Part shown: positions 4,401-48,738 of the stretch, one piece after another
How positions within the stretch are numbered: the first letter of the stretch is position 1
Layout: the number at the start of each line of letters is the position of its first letter
From: an uncultured Psychroserpens sp.
Lineage (GTDB): Bacteria > Bacteroidota > Bacteroidia > Flavobacteriales > Flavobacteriaceae
Length of the DNA stretch: 64,000 nt
Direction: 5' to 3'
Assembly: GCF_947500255.1 (NCBI RefSeq)
Contig: NZ_CANMRL010000003.1
Location: 1-64,000 of the forward strand
Notes under the pieces: generated by a model
What the model was told of the DNA's origin: nothing
What the model saw: only the letters and a program-made list of their open reading frames with translations
The model's database searches: none
Translations under genes and position numbers: made by a program

Positions 4401-7400
4401 GCAGGCGATTATGATGTTGTAGTACAATATTCTATTGGTGCATCTGTATGTGCCTCAGTACCGCAAACAGTTACTATAATAGCCAATGACGCGATATCTG
4501 GCACTGCCGAATTAGATGCGCCTTACACATGTACATCTAATGGAACAATTATAGTTACAGGTGTTACAGGTGGAGATGGACCATATACATATAGTATTGA
4601 TGGTGTTACATTTCAAGCTAGTAATACGTTTACTGGTTTAACAGATGGAACATATACAATTACTATACAAGACACTAATAATTGTACTGCTATTACAAAT
4701 GAAATAACTATAGACTCATTAAATCCTCCAACAGATTTAATGTTTGACAACTCTCCTATTACATGTCCGTCAAATACAACTACAGTTACCATAACAGGAA
4801 CTACTGGTGGTACTGGAGTTTTAGAATATCAAATTATTGCTCCAGCGGCTAGTGCTACACCATACCAAACATCTAACAGTTTTGCTGGATTAGAACCTGG
4901 AACCTATACATTTCAAGTACGAGATGAAAATGATTGTGTGTATACTGAATCTTATACTATAAATCCAATTCCAACTCCTACAGTAAATGTAGTATTAACT
5001 CAAGATTTAAATTGTACAGTTACACCAGATGCTATTATAACAGGAAACATTACAGGAACAGCTCCATTTACCTATGCGGTATCTATTAATGGTACGGCAT
5101 ATGCATCATTAGGCACTACTGGAACATCATTTACATATACAACAGCAATAGACGGAACATATCAATTTGAAATTACAGATGCCAATGGTTGTATTGCAGA
5201 ATCTAGTGTAATAACAATAGAACCTTTATCGCTTCCTAACTTAAGTGTTGTAGTACAATCTGAACAAATTCTTTGTAATGGAGATTCTAATGGAGCTATA
5301 GATATTACAATCGATACTACGGTAGGGACACCTCCATTTACTATAAATGTGAACAATGATACAACTGGAACAAATTATGGATCTCAAACATCAGGATTAC
5401 CAGCTGGTTCATATACTGTTACTGTTACAGATGCAAATTCTTGTACAGCTAACGAAGTTATTGTCATTAGTGAACCAGATCCTATAGTTGTAGATTATAC
5501 TACAGTAGATATTAGTTGTGGACCAGGTGGTGTATCACAAGGTTCTATAATTATTAACTCTGTTACTGGTGGAACAGCACCTTATAATTATTTTGTTACT
5601 GGAACAAATGGTTATGCCAACTCTGAGCTTAATGCAACAGGCTCTACCTCTGTTAGTTTTGATGTCGTAGATTTTGGATTATATGAAATTAATGTTGTAG
5701 ATGCCAATGGTTGTTCTGTATTAGAACAAGATGTACTGGTTGCCTCCCCTCCAACCGATCTAGATATCTCAGTAACTGCTACTGTAGATTGTCTTACTGG
5801 TGGAGAAGCAGTAGTAAGTGTTGGATCTACCTTAACTAGTTCTGGTCCATTCTTTTTCAGTATATATCAAGGTCCTATTTCAGTATATCCTAATCCGCCA
5901 GGATCATGGATTCCAGAAGATACGCCTGGTAGTGAATCTGCAACATTTACTGGTTTAACTTCTGGTGTTACTTATACGTTTATAGTTTATGACGCCTCAA
6001 CTAATTGTAGTTATTATGAACCAGCGACAACACCAATTCCAACAAATTCAACGTTGACATTGAGTGCAGTTAGTTCAAATAATATTACATGTACTGGAAG
6101 CGATGATGGAAATGTGTCATTTACAATTAATAGTGTCTATGGAACTGCAGTAAACGTCAACTATGAAATTTTTGATGCATTAACCTTAGCATCAACTGGT
6201 ATAACAGGTTCTGGCAGTGTTCCAGCTGGTGGTTCACTTACTGTAACCGATTTAGGACTATTACCTTTTGGTAATTACTTTGTTTCTATTACTGAAACAT
6301 CTGGAGCAAATTCTGGTTGTGGTGTAGTGACTGCGCCTTTCAATATAACTGAATCTGCTATCTTATTGAACTTAGATGTTTCTATAGATCAAAATGCAAA
6401 TTGTAATACAAACTCTGGAGTGATTAGTGCGATTGCACAAGATGGTACTGCTCCATATCAATACCAAATAACTACTACCGCTGCTGCGCCTTTAGCAACA
6501 GATGCTGGTTGGGCTTCAGCAAGTACATTTAACGTAGATGCCGGAAACTATTATGTACATGCTTTAGATGCTTATGGATGTGTTGTTTCAAGTCCTGTTG
6601 TGGTTTTACCAATGGATACGACGCCTGTCATTTCTGCTACAGTTACTAACTTATGTACTGTAACAGAAGGAAATTTTGAAATAGACGTTACTTTAGATAC
6701 TCCAGGTATTGCACCATATAGTTTTAGTATAGATGGTGGCGCTTTTCAGACACAAACAGTTCCATTTACGATATCTAATTTATTCTCCGGAACGCATACA
6801 ATTGAAATACAGGATGTCAACGGATGTGGTAACTTAGTATCAGTTGATATTCAAGCACCATTGACATTGACTCCAAGCATTACAGGATTATCCACATGTA
6901 ACGATGATGATGGCGAAATTACCTTGGTAACAACAGGAGGTTCAGGAACGTATACATACAGTATAAGTCCAAACCCTGCATCCATTAGTTTAAGTGGAGA
7001 TGTGTTTTCTGGTGTGCCATCAGGAGTTTATACAATTACTATTACAGATACTGTAACTTCATGTACAGAAGAAACAACAATATCAATACCAGAAGCTACA
7101 CCTCCATTATTTACGACAACACCAACAGGAGTCACATGTTTTGGGGATAATTCTGGGTCATTTGATATAGACATAAATGGTTATACAGGAACTTATACTT
7201 ATGAAGTATTTGACAGTTTAGGTGCTTCAGTTACTGGAGTGGTAAATGCTAATACATCTACCAATCCATTAACTGTATCAGGAATGTCAGCTGGAACGTT
7301 TTCAGTAGTTATTACTGAAACAGAAAGCCCTTTCTGTTCTGCTAATTCAACTGTAGTTATTGCTTCACCTTCTGAGATCTTGGCATTAACTGCCAATGAA

Positions 7401-9639: not shown

Positions 9640-10644
9640 ATGAAAAATATCAAACTATATATTCTCTTAATGTTCTGTTCATTTAGTTTTGGACAAGAGC
9701 TAAACTTGCCTGTATGGACTCAATACTTAGCAGATAATGATTTTATTATCTCTCCTACTTATGCAGGAATTGGAGATAATTTAAAAATACGAGCTAACGG
9801 ACTTACGCAATGGGTAGGTATTAAAAATGCACCAGACAATCAAGCTCTGTATGCCGATTTCAGAATTGCTAATCAATCTGGCATTGGTGTATCTATGTAT
9901 AATGACAGAAATGGTAATACACGTCAAAAGGGAGCTAAGTTCTCGTTTGCACATCATATCATTCTAGACTATACATCTAAGCAATATTTTTCATTTGGTA
10001 TGTCATACAATATCAATAGCTTTCGAATTGATATTGAAAACTTTCAGCCTACAGAAGAAATTCCTATTGTAGATCCTAGTATTACTGATGATAGATCAGT
10101 AACCAATCATAATTTTGATGTGGGCTTACTTTACCGTTGGGACCGTTTTTATCTTAGTGTTAATGCAAATAATATATTAGAGAAGAAAATTGATGATTTT
10201 ACGGGTTTTGAACCTAATAATCTTTTAAACTTTCAAGCCTATACTGGATATGTATTTGGTAACAAACGAAATAATAGTGTTGAGTTTGAACCATCAGTAT
10301 TTTTTCAATTGTTTAATAGTGATGGACGTTCTGCAACCGATTTCAATTTTAAATATAGAAAGTTCAATAGATCTGGTGATTACTACTGGGTTGGTGCTTC
10401 ATATCGTTTCTTAAATGATCAATTTTTGAAACCATTAAACTTTGGTCCTATGGCAGGAATCATGAAGAATAGATTATATTTTGCCTACTCATACCAATTG
10501 ACCATTAATGACCTTTCTGGATTTAACTCAGGTACGCATAGTATTACTATAGGATTAGATTTCTTACAAGGCATTAGTAATTGTGCTTGTACAAAAGGTA
10601 CAAGCTATAGAAAGTATAAGAATAATGGTAATAATAGAAACTAA
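9640..10644 (+). CDS. PorP/SprF family type IX secretion membrane protein
   Basis: A 334-residue outer-membrane beta-barrel-like protein of the PorP/SprF family. Family members are needed for secretion or surface attachment of a particular type B-tailed partner, here most likely the SprB-like protein encoded 22 bp upstream. An ATG at 9640 gives a clean signal peptide (MKNIKLYILLMFCSFSFG|Q). An in-frame ATG at 9589 would overlap the adhesin gene and put 17 non-signal residues in front, so I reject it. Family hallmarks are the early LPVWTQYLADNDFIISPTYAGIG segment, GIGVSMYNDRNG, and a C-terminal strand ending in SITIGLDFLQG. A Cys-containing tail (NCACTKGTSYR) follows the last strand. Confidence 0.88.
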   Translation: MKNIKLYILLMFCSFSFGQELNLPVWTQYLADNDFIISPTYAGIGDNLKIRANGLTQWVGIKNAPDNQALYADFRIANQSGIGVSMYNDRNGNTRQKGAKFSFAHHIILDYTSKQYFSFGMSYNINSFRIDIENFQPTEEIPIVDPSITDDRSVTNHNFDVGLLYRWDRFYLSVNANNILEKKIDDFTGFEPNNLLNFQAYTGYVFGNKRNNSVEFEPSVFFQLFNSDGRSATDFNFKYRKFNRSGDYYWVGASYRFLNDQFLKPLNFGPMAGIMKNRLYFAYSYQLTINDLSGFNSGTHSITIGLDFLQGISNCACTKGTSYRKYKNNGNNRN

Positions 10645-10653
10645 ATACCTCTA

Positions 10654-11094
10654 CTAAACTAGCATGTTATTGAAATAACTAATTAGTATCGTTACACTAT
10701 CAACCTGTTCTTGTGTAGGAGTTGCAACTTCAACTGCTGTATCGACAATTGTTTGCCAACCAAGACCAGCCGTAAATACTGGTATTAATTGCATCCACTT
10801 TGGCCTATTTGCATCAAAGGCCTTTCTGTATACCGTTGGAAAAGCAACAATAGATACAATTAAAGCAAATACAACAAAATAATAGTCTTGATATACTTCA
10901 CTAGGAGTACCAAAGTTTCTTGCTTCTTTATAAAACGCATAGAAAGGTTGAATGAGGACACCAGCGAAAAGTGCCAACCATTGAAAAATTGCTTTTGGTC
11001 CAGTTGACGGGTCATTCTCTCCTTGTACATCAGATTTAAAAATTGAAGTGTTCTCTCTATTTCTGTAAAGAGAAAAATAGTTTTGTGAAGCCAT
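10654..11094 (-). CDS. Conserved-type hypothetical membrane protein, 146 residues
   Basis: I do not recognise a family. The protein starts MASQNYFSLYRNREN with a hydrophilic N-terminus of about 35 residues. Three hydrophobic segments follow, at about residues 36-55, 70-88 and 100-118, separated by short charged loops (YKEARN, YRKAFDANRPKW). No signal peptide or catalytic motif is visible. It is convergent with the SprF-like gene, with 9 bp between the stop codons. The 175-bp upstream region to the next gene contains a short inverted repeat (CACTGA/TCAGTG near 11214-11228) and no clear promoter. It is probably an integral inner-membrane protein. Confidence 0.6.
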   Translation of the reverse strand: MASQNYFSLYRNRENTSIFKSDVQGENDPSTGPKAIFQWLALFAGVLIQPFYAFYKEARNFGTPSEVYQDYYFVVFALIVSIVAFPTVYRKAFDANRPKWMQLIPVFTAGLGWQTIVDTAVEVATPTQEQVDSVTILISYFNNMLV

Positions 11095-45425: not shown

Positions 45426-45453
45426 AATCCCTTCCAAACTAATGAAAGGGATT
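45426..45453 (-). terminator. Ancestral terminator hairpin next to the left att repeat
   Basis: AATCCCTT (45426-45433) pairs with AAGGGATT (45446-45453) around a 12-nt loop; read leftward, a T-rich stretch follows. It lies just outside the left copy of the tRNA-Arg 3' sequence. Before the insertion it would have stood directly downstream of the tRNA-Arg gene, so it was probably that operon's terminator. Confidence 0.5.
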
Positions 45454-45455
45454 CT

Positions 45456-45501
45456 GTGAGCCCTGAAGGATTCGAACCTTCGACCGCCTCCTTAGAAGGG
45501 A
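45456..45501 (-). pseudogene. Left att repeat: orphan 3' half of tRNA-Arg
   Basis: The 46 bp match the real gene at 48664-48709 base for base, covering the T arm, variable region and 3' side of the anticodon arm. At 45502 the match stops (TTTAGAATAA instead of GGTGCTCTAT), so the D arm and 5' acceptor are missing and no tRNA can fold. It is the left attachment site of the island. Confidence 0.9.
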
Positions 45502-45764
45502 TTTAGAATAAATTTTAACTTATTAATAATCAATGTATTACCTTTAGTTTAAATTGATAAATACAAAATAAATACATTTTTTTGTAAGTTATATCTTACA
45601 AATAGTTTTATTCTCAATTATATTAAAAAATAGAAAAGCTAATATTTGTCATGATTTTCAAAATTTGTAATAATTTTCTACATTTTTTTTGTAGATTTAA
45701 CATAATTCTTCCCTATAGTATAATTAATTCAATTGACGTTTTTTAATTCGAATGTGTTCTTTTT
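45502..45764. other. AT-rich left end of the island with TGTA/TACA inverted repeats
   Basis: No gene is seen in this 263-bp stretch. It contains three short palindromic sites: TACA-T6-TGTA at 45573-45586, TTTGTAAG/CTTACAAA at 45581-45602 (6-bp loop), and TACA-T7-TGTA at 45679-45693. The TACATTTT half-site is also repeated at the right end of the island. They could bind a recombinase or the regulator of the DUF3800 promoter. No clear TAnnTTTG element precedes the gene. Confidence 0.45.
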
Positions 45765-46502
45765 ATGAGATACTTTGTATTTATTGATGAAACTGGCGAA
45801 GCCAACATTAATAATTTAGATCCTAGATATAACATTTTTGCTCTTTGCGGTGTAGTGTTTCGGGAAGATCATTATAACAGATTTGACACAGAATTAAAAG
45901 ATTTAAAAAGAAAGCTTTTTGGCAATGAAGATGTGATACTTCATTCATATACCATGCGTAAAAATAAGGGAGCGTTTAAAGTCTTTCAAGATAAAAAAGT
46001 ATTAAATGAATTCTATAATGGTATTGAGAAGATTTTCACACAACATACATATAAAGTTATTTCATGCATAGTCAATAAAGAAGAATATAAAAAGAAATAC
46101 CCTCTTCATAATTTCGCATATGAAGATGCATTAAAGTTTTTATGTGAAAGATCTATTTCTAGCATTGGAGAGAATAATAAAAAACAGACGCTACATTTTT
46201 GTTTGGAAAAAAGAGGTAATAGAAAAGATAGAGATTTGAAAAAATTGTACACAAAAATTGTCCGTTATGGAACAGATTATAAATCAACTGACGATTTTAA
46301 AGTATGTCATCCAAATTTGTTTTTTAGAGCAAAAAATCAAAATATAAACGGCTTGCAACTTGCAGATTTATGCGCTTATCCAATAGCAAGAAAAGTATTG
46401 TCACCTGAAAGGAGTCAGCCAACATATGATTTATTTGAAAATAAAATATACCGCAGTCGGTATGGAGAAAAAAGAGGATATGGATTGAAATTTTTCCCCT
46501 AA
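45765..46502 (+). CDS. DUF3800 family protein, island cargo
   Basis: A 245-residue cytoplasmic protein. The DUF3800 pattern is visible: RYFVFIDETGEAN at the N-terminus (Asp8, Glu9), YNIFALCGVVF, HFCLEKRGNRKDR (Glu148) and INGLQLADLCAYPIARKV (Asp201). These spaced acidic residues are reminiscent of an RNase H-like nuclease, which is an inference and not an established activity. DUF3800 genes are often found on mobile elements and near defence genes. This is the first gene of the island, 264 bp from the left repeat. The next gene follows on the same strand after 89 bp. Confidence 0.82.
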   Translation: MRYFVFIDETGEANINNLDPRYNIFALCGVVFREDHYNRFDTELKDLKRKLFGNEDVILHSYTMRKNKGAFKVFQDKKVLNEFYNGIEKIFTQHTYKVISCIVNKEEYKKKYPLHNFAYEDALKFLCERSISSIGENNKKQTLHFCLEKRGNRKDRDLKKLYTKIVRYGTDYKSTDDFKVCHPNLFFRAKNQNINGLQLADLCAYPIARKVLSPERSQPTYDLFENKIYRSRYGEKRGYGLKFFP

Positions 46503-46591
46503 ACACGGTGAAACCTTAAATTTAAAAAACTTAAGGCTTCCCAGCGGCGGGACATACGTCCAACTCACTATATTACAAATTTACAAAAATT
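46503..46591 (+). other. Structured 89-bp spacer between DUF3800 and beta-family genes
   Basis: CCTTAA (46514-46519) and TTAAGG (46531-46536) form a hairpin, and a GC-rich run follows (CTTCCCAGCGGCGGGACATA, from 46538) with a second small stem TCCC/GGGA. Its GC content stands out from the AT-rich surroundings. It could be an attenuator, a terminator of DUF3800 or part of a small RNA. No T-run follows the GC-rich stem, so the role is open. Confidence 0.35.
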
Positions 46592-47656
46592 ATGAAAAAC
46601 TACTATCCAATATTAGTATCAAAAAATGGAGAAATCGGAGCTTTACAACATCTAGAGCAGCATGTCAAAGATGAAATATGTCCAATAATAGAAGTGATTA
46701 ATAGTACTCTAATAAAATTTAAGACAGACAAAGCCACTGGCGTTGAGACAATGTCGTACTCAGACAAATTTGAAAGGTTCTTACGCACTCATTGGAATTT
46801 TTTTAATAATCAGATCATACTAGACTTTTCTCTTTTTGTTGAGTGGGATAATCATATAGATTTTTTAAGAGATACTCTAATTAGATTATTAAACTCAGGT
46901 GTAAACATAATACCGTCAGTACAAACTAACTCTACTCAATCATACAAGAACTTGATTAGAGAGTTGGTTGGTAATTATAATTGCAATTTATGCTTTCGTT
47001 TTTCTAATTCAAGTGGAGGTTTTGTCCACATGGACAATGACATCGCAAATCTTATAGGTGAATTTAGAATTGAATTAAATAATTTGATAATTCTAACAGA
47101 TCTTGGTCAAATTGATTCAGGAAATTATAATACAATTGGATCTTCTGCAGGTGTCGTTTTGCAAAATTTAAATTATGACTTGAATCAATTTGAATCTGTT
47201 ATTCTAGCTTCATCTTCATTTCCAGCTGGTTTAGGAGGTTTTGAAAGCTCAGAAGAAGCTCACACAATTGTTAGATATGAGTGGAGCTTATTTAATAATA
47301 TAGCTAGAGGCAATTTAGATATGATTAAATATGGAGACTATGGAACTAAGACGGCAATATTTGAAGATGTAAATTATATGGGCTCAATTAGCTTAAAATA
47401 TAGCACTTCACAAGAGTATGTTATCTATAGAGGTTTAAGAACTGTTGATCACCATCTTGGGCATAAACAATTTATAAGTCACTCGAGGAAACTAATTGAC
47501 TCAGCATATTTTAGCGGTAACGCATTTAGTTGGGGAGATTTACGATATTTTGAAATCAGTCAACAAGATTTACAAAACGGAAGCCCTGGAAATTCAATGC
47601 AATGGGTACAGTTTAGCCAAAATCATCACATAACACTCATGCATAGTATTCTTTAA
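46592..47656 (+). CDS. Beta family (sce7725-like) protein, island cargo
   Basis: A 354-residue protein beginning MKNYYPILVSKNGEIGALQHLEQHVKDEICPIIEVI. This matches the start of the phage T4 beta-protein-like family and the sce7725 family (YYP.L..K..E..AL...). The rest has barrel-like alternation (FLRTHWNFFNNQIILDFSLFVEW, VNIIPSVQTNS, NLIILTDLGQI, SVILASSSFPAGLGGF) and ends with GNSMQWVQFSQNHHITLMHSIL. The biochemical role is unknown. Its end overlaps the end of the convergent sce7726-like gene by 20 bp. The sce7725/sce7726 pair is named for adjacent genes in Sorangium cellulosum, so finding both together supports a joint function. Confidence 0.8.
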   Translation: MKNYYPILVSKNGEIGALQHLEQHVKDEICPIIEVINSTLIKFKTDKATGVETMSYSDKFERFLRTHWNFFNNQIILDFSLFVEWDNHIDFLRDTLIRLLNSGVNIIPSVQTNSTQSYKNLIRELVGNYNCNLCFRFSNSSGGFVHMDNDIANLIGEFRIELNNLIILTDLGQIDSGNYNTIGSSAGVVLQNLNYDLNQFESVILASSSFPAGLGGFESSEEAHTIVRYEWSLFNNIARGNLDMIKYGDYGTKTAIFEDVNYMGSISLKYSTSQEYVIYRGLRTVDHHLGHKQFISHSRKLIDSAYFSGNAFSWGDLRYFEISQQDLQNGSPGNSMQWVQFSQNHHITLMHSIL

Positions 47657-48212
47657 GTTTCCAATCAACTCTTTTCTTTAGAGTTTCACGGACAATTTTA
47701 GAAAGTTTTCTAGTTGGTATTTTACAGCCTAATAATTCACTTAACTTCCATACAGTATCTTTTTTTCTAAAAGATATTTCTTGAGATTTTAAGATGTTCT
47801 CAATTTCTTCTCTCCATAGCAATTTGGCAAGAAAAAAACCTTCTTTGTTTTTGTTAATATATGGCTTACGAATTGTTTCAATTCTAAATCCGACAGACGT
47901 TTCAACACATACTTGTAATCCAACCCATTCAGGTAACATTTTAAGGATTTTTTCATGATGTTTATTTTCCGTAACTACAGTTAAATAATCAAAAACTTTT
48001 GAATAACCTTCTATTTGATGAGGTAGTCTAATGAGGTTATCTCTTGAGCTTTTTATTTCATAGCCATGTAAATGTCCATTTAAAACCGCTATATCAATTC
48101 TCGACTTTGTAATTGGAATATTAAGTTCATCAACAATTTTAGAATCAGAATCTACAATAAATTTTTTAAGGGTAGTATCTCTTAATAGTTTACGGATATC
48201 AAAATCTCTCAT
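47637..48212 (-). CDS. sce7726-like protein with PD-(D/E)XK nuclease-type motif
   Basis: A 191-residue protein beginning MRDFDIRKLLRDTTLKKFI, typical of the sce7726 family. Glu29, Asp40 (RIDIAVLNG) and Glu52-x-Lys54 (GYEIKSSRDNL) with a following HQIEGY segment form a PD-(D/E)XK-type site, as in restriction endonucleases and Holliday-junction resolvases. Activity is inferred. The C-terminal half is basic and helical (KIPTRKLSKIVRETLKKRVDWKLKEY), possibly nucleic-acid binding. It is transcribed toward the beta-family gene and overlaps it by 20 bp. The 450 bp upstream reach the tRNA repeat and hold no other gene. Confidence 0.82.
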   Translation of the reverse strand: MRDFDIRKLLRDTTLKKFIVDSDSKIVDELNIPITKSRIDIAVLNGHLHGYEIKSSRDNLIRLPHQIEGYSKVFDYLTVVTENKHHEKILKMLPEWVGLQVCVETSVGFRIETIRKPYINKNKEGFFLAKLLWREEIENILKSQEISFRKKDTVWKLSELLGCKIPTRKLSKIVRETLKKRVDWKLKEYYA

Positions 48213-48633
48213 AATTTTTTATTTGATTAACGCAAAAAAAGTTGGGACTTGCTCAATCGATAAATAAAATGTAGTCATTAATATAAGGATTTTTTCAACA
48301 TGAATATCAAAACTCAAATTCTTTAGCAAACATAATAAAAAAAACAGACTCACTCATAACTTCTATTGCAACAATAAAAGTTAATCTTATCATTGCGAAT
48401 ACTTTTTTACAATCAGGGTCCAAAAATTAAATCTTACTTGTTATTCAATTAAAACTAATCTAAATACTCTAATACATTTTACATACATTTTACACCATCG
48501 ACCGCTTCTAGTTTTTTATAACTCAAAATGCTTATTATCAATGTCTTATATTTTTCTGTGTATGTAAAAAATGTATGTAAAATGTATTTTTTTTGTGAAA
48601 AATATTAAGGAAATAAAAATCATTAAAAACATA
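48213..48633. other. Gene-free AT-rich right end of the island
   Basis: I see no open reading frame with a plausible start, no recognisable integrase fragment and no tRNA here. The main content is a large inverted repeat (48471-48588), listed separately. The promoter of the sce7726-like gene must lie in the first part, but no TAnnTTTG element is evident on the minus strand. Confidence 0.5.
48471..48588. repeat. 21-bp inverted repeat built from 11-bp units near the right att site
   Basis: Bases 48471-48491 match the reverse complement of 48568-48588 exactly over 21 bp, with 76 bp between. The left arm is two tandem copies of TACATTTTACA (48473, 48484). The right arm holds TGTAAAATGTA at 48576 and a variant with two extra bases at 48563. 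The loop contains TCGACCGCTTC (48498-48508), close to the tRNA-Arg repeat core. The position 75-190 bp from the core repeat fits arm-type sites of tyrosine recombinases. Confidence 0.7.
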
Positions 48634-48661
48634 AAAGCCGCACTATCACTAGTGCGGCTTT
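48634..48661 (-). terminator. Element-borne terminator hairpin after tRNA-Arg
   Basis: AAAGCCGCACT (48634-48644) and AGTGCGGCTTT (48651-48661) form a perfect 11-bp stem with a 6-nt loop, followed on the minus strand by CTTTTATGTTTTT. It starts 4 bp past the tRNA-Arg 3' end and is inside the inserted element, so the element supplies a strong terminator in place of the one pushed away to 45426-45453. Confidence 0.75.
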
Positions 48662-48663
48662 AA

Positions 48664-48709
48664 GTGAGCCCTGAAGGATTCGAACCTTCGACCGCCTCCT
48701 TAGAAGGGA
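48664..48709 (-). repeat. Right att repeat, inside the intact tRNA-Arg gene
   Basis: The same 46 bp as at 45456-45501 (direct orientation). It overlaps the 3' half of the tRNA, from just past the discriminator base to the 3' side of the anticodon loop, and includes the TCT anticodon region. Recombination within these 46 bp leaves the tRNA intact on this side. Confidence 0.9.
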
Positions 48710-48738
48710 GGTGCTCTATCCAGCTGAGCTAAGAGCCC
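48665..48738 (-). tRNA. tRNA-Arg (anticodon TCT)
   Basis: The minus strand folds to a complete cloverleaf: acceptor GGGCTCT/AGGGCTC with two G-U pairs, D arm AGCTCAGCTGGATAGAGC, anticodon stem CCTCC/GGAGG with loop CTTCTAA (anticodon TCT), T arm GAAGG-TTCGAAT-CCTTC, discriminator A. The CCA end is not encoded. It follows tRNA-Pro by 9 bp in a common transcript and is the integration target of the island. Confidence 0.95.

Follow-up and report, generated by a model that had tools for sequence, protein, structure and literature searches.

Two kinds of recombinase-free mobile DNA are described in the portions of the literature consulted here. Cis-mobilizable elements (CIMEs) are decayed integrative and conjugative elements (ICEs) or integrative and mobilizable elements (IMEs) that are flanked by att sites and able to move after accretion with another element (PMC5704250). 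Hitcher elements such as miniature inverted-repeat transposable elements (MITEs) and clusters of attC sites lacking integron integrases (CALINs) have no recombinase and depend on one in trans (PMC11389934); the consulted portion of the latter source names no tRNA-att hitcher class. For the genes discussed below, two known systems are relevant: gop-beta-cII, an anti-phage module of satellite P4 (PMC9122126), and PD-lambda-2, which has three components, A, B and C (PMC9519451). Here we describe a 3,162-bp island (positions 45502-48663, with no strand assigned) that lies between two copies of a tRNA-Arg 3′ end in a 64,000-nt stretch of the genome of an uncultured Psychroserpens sp. (contig NZ_CANMRL010000003.1, hereafter the window). 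An initial annotation had suggested that this island depends on an integrase acting in trans, like a satellite, and may represent a minimal class of mobile unit. We read it as a non-autonomous, att-flanked hitcher unit that was integrated in trans and belongs to a wider set in the Bacteroidota, a reading that we hold to be evenly poised.

The island is flanked by an exact 46-bp direct repeat of tRNA-Arg(TCT) sequence (45456-45501 and 48664-48709), with 3.16 kb in between. As the initial annotation had stated, one copy belongs to an intact gene and the other is an orphan: the attR-like copy forms the 3′ 46 bp of an intact tRNA-Arg(TCT) (48664-48738, minus strand; ARAGORN and Rfam), and the attL-like copy is a tRNA-Arg 3′ part, also on the minus strand, at which ARAGORN calls no tRNA. 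With up to three mismatches allowed, these are the only two copies in the 4.0-Mb genome, and an exact match of 46 bp is far beyond chance. Starting at the tRNA 3′ end, the repeat takes in the 7-nt anticodon loop (TTAGAAG, at 48700-48706 in the intact tRNA and at 45492-45498 in the orphan) and stops three bases further on. Tyrosine integrases that cross over in the anticodon loop leave repeats ending in this manner, and from this anatomy we infer that crossover took place within the loop and that the loop sequence of the orphan was likewise a crossover site. The native terminator hairpin of the tRNA (45426-45453, minus strand) now lies beyond the orphan copy, and in the nearest relative (G005) the same hairpin adjoins the tRNA; a different, island-borne terminator hairpin (48634-48661, minus strand) now stands 3′ of the tRNA in the window. 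The island is also the lowest-GC stretch of 3.16 kb in the window (28.5 % versus 33.1 %; 1 of 609 sliding windows).

Comparison of the same tRNA-Arg locus within the genus, which the initial annotation had proposed, agrees with insertion. Our sample held 23 genomes including that of the window, of which three (G002, G008 and G018) were not assessable, leaving the window and 19 congeners. An empty-looking site, taken as a gap of 129-187 bp between the flanking-gene match and the tRNA, was seen in 8 of the 19 (G004, G006, G007, G009, G012, G013, G015 and G016), and the joined flanks of the window align end to end with each of the three that were aligned (G007, G009 and G013); the pattern that had been named as speaking against the annotation, the same three genes at this site in all relatives with no empty form, was not seen. 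Three integrase-less, tRNA-flanked islands occur at tRNA-Arg in the genus, each with other cargo. Besides the one in the window, G010 has a 1.45-kb island with a single beta-carbonic anhydrase gene between tRNA-Arg copies that agree at 38 of 40 bases, with a GCCGC-type hairpin at the position corresponding to 48634-48661, and G011 has a 4.4-kb island in which tRNA copies of 32 nt, identical at 31 bases, enclose a 172-aa open reading frame (ORF) and genes for two amidohydrolases; no integrase was found in either. Four further congeners have GIY-YIG ORFs at this site, and the remaining five (G001, G003, G019, G020 and G022) have other inserts, in which no tRNA repeat was found.

The interval between the repeats holds three genes and no recombinase, as first described. 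None of the three proteins matched a recombinase family in profile searches, and a six-frame PF00589 search that read through stops yielded neither a match in the island, where an overlooked integrase had been considered, nor a partial integrase match in the genome. The same search detects additional, lower-scoring integrases in G005 and G010 (E 1e-13 to 1e-16, open frames of 408-426 aa), so it does reach such types. The genome of the window contains three PF00589 matches, all outside the island, whose ORFs we take, on reading them, to encode XerD, XerC and an IntI-like protein. The island therefore resembles a CIME in being flanked by attL- and attR-like sites (the exact repeat of 46 bp, of which the intact tRNA contains one copy), in lying in a tRNA 3′ end and in having no integrase; none of its genes is of an integration or conjugation family. 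As to descent from an ICE or IME, the island has no integrase remnant and no parent was found, and small integrase-bearing islands with one of its genes do exist (see below). It differs from a CIME in that small units of this kind recur with different cargo, some of them with a conserved putative helix-turn-helix (HTH) gene and ordered arm sites.

The cargo of the window island points to defence. The first gene (45765-46502, plus strand) encodes a 245-aa DUF3800 protein (PF12686, E 3.7e-15), a domain reported to have an RNase-H fold (PMC10910872). The second (46592-47656, plus strand) encodes a 354-aa relative of P4 beta and PD-lambda-2 C (PF14350, E 5.3e-48; PADLOC PD-Lambda-2_C 2.2e-39 and beta 4.6e-13), and the third (47637-48212, minus strand), convergent with it and overlapping it by 20 bp, encodes a 191-aa sce7726 family protein related to P4 cII (NF033832, E 1.6e-49; PADLOC cll 1.8e-34). 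The alignment of sce7726 proteins has a conserved D ... E-x-K, presumably a PD-(D/E)XK-like nuclease signature. No further island ORF of at least 50 aa was taken for a gene, and the DUF3800 protein has no PADLOC match. The three genes probably act together as an abortive-infection-type defence. The beta and cII relatives are adjacent and convergent, as in the P4 record and in Escherichia coli records; the island, however, has DUF3800 beside the pair, has no capsid or replication genes and has no gop, and because gop is missing we do not count the system as a member of gop-beta-cII. More generally, the P4 record has its own integrase, replication and capsid-control genes, whereas the island has none. 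Likewise, the best PADLOC match of the beta protein is PD-lambda-2 component C, but components A and B are unmatched among the three proteins.

The same cargo is found without an integrase at a second tRNA. In G720, a genome of the same class and another family, homologues of DUF3800, sce7726 and beta (42, 44 and 32 % identical, respectively) are accompanied by a small putative HTH gene. The group is bounded on one side by an intact tRNA-Ala(GGC) and on the other by 18 nt copied from the 3′ end of that tRNA, at a distance of 3,183 bp. There is no integrase ORF in this unit, and a terminator-like hairpin follows the orphan copy, as in the window. The tRNA-Ala was matched in 18 of 19 genomes of the genus of G720, and at all 18 loci we looked for related insertions; four hold units (G720, G1144, G1142 and G1130), and a fifth unit is present at tRNA-Ser(GCT) in G1130. 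The five are 2.4-3.3 kb long, and in each a related protein of 103-131 aa adjoins the tRNA, with 28-36 % identity to the G720 copy and 19 invariant columns. The HTH label of this protein derives from PF13443, which two of the five match below threshold (20.5 bits; cut-off 22) and the remaining three do not match; none of the five matched PHROGs, and a search of viral contigs with their alignment returned no relative. The orphan 3′ ends share 18 (G720), 21 (G1144), 15 (G1142), 10 (G1130, tRNA-Ala) and 15 (G1130, tRNA-Ser) exact bases with the respective tRNAs, the tRNA-Ala unit of G1130 being the weakest, with one further base that differs. In every unit the motif TGTCACA is present at a distance of 118-156 bp from the distal core, and in four of the five it occurs again at 70-87 bp.

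Behind this common frame the cargo is variable and, to judge from similarity, mostly defence-like. The G1144 unit carries PADLOC PDC-M19A/B, that of G1142 carries PDC-M11A/B and an AAA protein, the tRNA-Ala unit of G1130 carries AbiH and a NYN protein (HEC-09), and the tRNA-Ser unit of G1130 carries a 388-aa protein with weak similarity to DUF5677 and PDC-S05; the PDC names are PADLOC labels that we take as candidate systems. The main ORFs of the units were also scanned with Pfam, apart from the DUF3800, sce7726 and beta genes of G720, which were known from alignment. No integrase was found in any of the five; the BLAST test for such genes relied on five reference integrases and could miss other types.

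The arm motifs also lead to a candidate helper. When TGTCACA-N5-TGTCACA was sought in the 19 genomes, eight exact arm pairs were found, with a chance expectation below one by our own arithmetic, for which no separate control was computed. Three lie within the units that had supplied the pattern (G720, G1142 and G1144), three lie beside tRNA-Ser(GCT) (G1129 and G1132) or its orphan 3′ end (G1130), and the remaining two precede a single integrase gene in G1143 (DUF6538 and PF00589, 426 aa), at 24 and 243 bp upstream of its start. On the strength of these two sites, the G1143 integrase is a candidate helper for the units. The element that contains it has relaxase-like ORFs by reading and no tRNA within 19 kb. 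At three loci (L205, L206 and L208), tRNA-Ser(GCT) is followed by a terminator and an arm pair (with one mismatch in L205) and no cargo; these sites may be either scars or remains of units.

These observations provide the basis for a model. In its circular form, the window island would bear arm-type sites and a terminator of its own together with the 3′ half of the tRNA. A tyrosine recombinase from another mobile element, supplied in trans, would recombine this circle at the anticodon loop of tRNA-Arg(TCT), so that the tRNA would stay intact after insertion and its former 3′ end would become the orphan. The island would then join a set of integrase-less, tRNA-nested hitcher units that carry small, exchangeable and often anti-phage modules. 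Such units would resemble MITEs and CALINs in having no recombinase of their own and, by our reading, in depending on one in trans; their ends, however, are tRNA att sites of the tyrosine integrase type rather than transposase or attC sites. The satellite-like dependence proposed in the initial annotation gains from the empty sites, the other cargo and the recurrence at other tRNAs, even if the trans-acting integrase itself belongs to the model, and its suggestion of a minimal class gains from the five regular units in the genus of G720 and from the arms that also flank the G1143 integrase gene. We therefore propose, as a possibility that we rate somewhat short of an even chance, a minimal class of defence satellites: integrase-less units of about 2.4-3.3 kb in tRNA 3′ ends that would rely entirely on the integrase of a co-resident element for both integration and excision. 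Such a unit would retain no more than an ordered attP with arms, a tRNA terminator of its own, a gene for the small putative HTH protein and a single anti-phage module open to exchange, and the window island would be a reduced cousin at tRNA-Arg. The putative HTH protein might serve as an excision factor or sense the helper. In the literature searched, as far as the sources were available, no integrase-less tRNA defence units were found described, and this is the sole basis on which we call the class undescribed.

Several results weigh against this interpretation. The window island has neither the putative HTH gene nor the TGTCACA arms and shares only cargo and anatomy with the units. Its own tandem arm-like repeats, which have an 11-bp period, differ from TGTCACA in sequence and lie on the tRNA-proximal side, as against the distal side in the units. 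They have no further copy in their own genome, and in 22 congeners they gave one match with three mismatches, compared with three for the reversed control (23 genomes). In the genus of G720, the arm pattern with up to one mismatch gave 24 matches versus 17 for the reversed control, hardly above it, so that inexact arm matches mean little. Sharing of a motif at the island end is no firmer: the level shared with G010 was reached by 10 of 300 shuffles, that with G720, which is not significant, by 36 of 300, and that with G011, where the motif is absent, by 300 of 300. Across the family, the tRNA pattern was matched in 47 of 397 genomes and was present twice on one contig solely in that of the window. 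Of the 44 matching genomes outside the genus, 40 were fetched and 39 were informative (one stretch was 554 bp long), and none of these 39 loci held an integrase-less island with the full repeat; of the elements with other cargo that the initial annotation had proposed to look for, two were found at the same tRNA within the genus (G010 and G011). Integrase-bearing islands with related cargo also exist, at tRNA-Cys in G568 (6.9 kb, DUF3800, an integrase and arm repeats at both ends) and at tRNA-Ser in G924 (about 3.3 kb). Finally, the PF00589 search revealed no evident helper integrase in the genome of the window. Since none of the three PF00589 matches lies in the island and its arm repeats have no other copy, the island looks stranded at present.

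The main rival is decay: an ordinary island would have entered the tRNA with an integrase of its own, and deletion of that gene would since have reduced it to attL, attR and the cargo, a strict CIME and a stranded relic rather than a hitcher. We consider this possible, though on balance doubtful. The G924 island (L109, 6156-9553), from the same class, is equally small, has a 15-nt copy of the tRNA-Ser 3′ end and encodes a 388-aa PF00589 integrase, a 232-aa ORF of no known function and DUF3800; it is an autonomous island of the same size with related cargo, and a single deletion could therefore yield an integrase-less island. Like the window island, G924, G568 and G093 have a tRNA 3′-end repeat, with DUF3800 in the first two, and they differ in carrying their own integrase. 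The G093 island (7.6 kb, with at least 18 nt repeated) is a clear integrase-bearing case from the family at this very tRNA-Arg, and integrase matches were also found near tRNA-Arg in G258 and G081; these three account for all integrase matches among the 39 informative loci. G720 itself has two partial PF00589 matches elsewhere in its genome, one of them below cut-off, and no helper was found in the genome of the window. Against this, decay needs a separate loss in each of the three genus islands and in each of the five units of the G720 genus; the five units have stayed compact, with their arms in order and the HTH frame open; the three-gene set lacks an integrase at each of two different tRNAs; and no partial integrase match is present in the genome of the window. 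For the G720-type units, the ordered arms, the conserved small gene, the exchangeable cargo and the candidate integrase favour hitching in trans. For the window island, decay is a close rival, because it has no HTH gene, its genome has no evident helper and G924 illustrates a possible kind of parent.

A further rival, in our view improbable, is that the tRNA 3′ end was the site of homologous recombination or of recombination provoked by a nuclease, which may be linked to the GIY-YIG mini-units that duplicate tRNA 3′ parts at the same genes. It draws on what else occupies these sites: at the same tRNA-Arg, GIY-YIG units with tRNA-like copies and terminators are present in G005, G014 and G021 and a GIY-YIG-like ORF without a copy in G017, GIY-YIG matches lie near tRNA-Ala in 6 of the 18 genomes of the G720 genus, and in G155 a unit is split by an insert of about 1.8 kb. 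No GIY-YIG gene was seen in the islands themselves, however; their repeats end at the anticodon loop or the T arm, as with site-specific integrases, and the G720-type units hold integrase-type arm sites at nearly fixed distances. Insertion of cassettes at tRNA hairpins by the IntI-like recombinase of the genus (375 aa) is very improbable. Each of the three genomes of the genus that were searched (those of the window, G005 and G010) has a PF00589 match of similar size, of which only the window ORF was read, but no link to the islands was seen and the G720-type units have phage-type arm sites.

Some candidate helpers and loci were set aside. The lower-scoring integrases of G005 and G010 were rejected as cognate helpers, there being no tRNA in the fetched 19.5 kb and no close match to the arm motifs tried. 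The PF00589 matches of like size in the three genus genomes are those of L068, L116 and L117, L068 being the one read as IntI-like. Close DUF3800 relatives occur in 11 of 395 genomes in the class; besides the window and G720, loci from the other nine were retrieved, and two of these nine, G568 and G924, have the integrase-bearing islands. At L101 (G892), the three genes recur in unchanged order next to a tRNA whose type is unclear and a fragment resembling a tRNA; this locus was not counted as a unit since no second flanking repeat was found. There, an 85-nt inverted repeat (4684-4768 and 10591-10675; 85 %) surrounds the three genes together with the tRNA and a transposase-like ORF. In L075 and L077, beta and sce7726 occur with no tRNA in the fetched stretch, and L078 has beta, tRNA-Lys and an integrase-like ORF with no clear tRNA repeat.

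The ends of the window island contain further motifs. An end motif, TTATTAATAATCAAT (45520-45534, plus strand), has a counterpart with one change in the G010 island, lying about as far from the core there, and a search of genome contigs for the tRNA core plus this motif matched a single record, from G010; as proof of one family, the shared motif was weakened by the shuffles and is retained as a hint. At the other end, TACATTTTACA occurs twice with an 11-bp period at 48471-48491 (minus strand), forming a perfect 21-bp inverted repeat with the second arm-like repeat at 48568-48588 (plus strand); the two lie 173-193 and 76-96 bp, respectively, from the 46-bp repeat. Between them, TCGACCGCTTCTAG (48498-48511, plus strand) resembles the core by eye and is followed by an end-like motif; it is possibly a relic of a second att site within the island. 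An Rfam scan of the island and its edges gave nothing at gathering score besides the two tRNAs, no DUF3800-type RNA was seen in nine related loci, and 46500-46595 is moderately folded (z -2.4).

Additional searches with the cargo proteins were less informative. The beta protein is rare, being found in 2 of 397 genomes of the family and 4 of 395 of the phylum, own included. On viral contigs, the beta protein found nothing (its alignment was too diverse to serve as a query), DUF3800 found no relative, and sce7726 gave three matches with 31-34 % identity over part of the protein. Single-sequence structure models were poor (mean predicted local distance difference test scores of 37.9 for sce7726 and 43.5 for beta). 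A sequence search of the PDB gave no match for beta, one weak match for DUF3800 (E 0.64) and four for sce7726; these four all align no more than 18 residues with designed SAKe chains and are taken as chance.

The GIY-YIG ORFs form small units in their own right. In G005, G014 and G021 at tRNA-Arg (L024, L030 and L034) and in G1141 at tRNA-Ala (L135 and L195), mini-units of about 350 bp have a GIY-YIG ORF placed between the tRNA and a tRNA-like copy in which a palindromic hairpin stands in for the anticodon arm. They are in tandem in G014 and G021, where PF01541 was confirmed for the ORFs, and literature searches turned up nothing recognised as such. Among the 39 family loci, GIY-YIG matches were found in G058 and G155, and the two tRNA-like copies of G155 belong to a GIY-YIG array (L172, about 0.1-2.6 kb beyond tRNA-Arg); the insert of about 1.8 kb that interrupts it contains a probable toxin-antitoxin pair, judged by eye, and a 243-aa ORF.

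Units of this kind escape any island finder whose search begins with an integrase gene. Should they prove to be real hitchers, they would account for the movement of small defence modules among tRNA sites without a mobility gene, and their use of integrases in trans would be directly testable through the arms, the cores, the putative HTH protein and the candidate helper.

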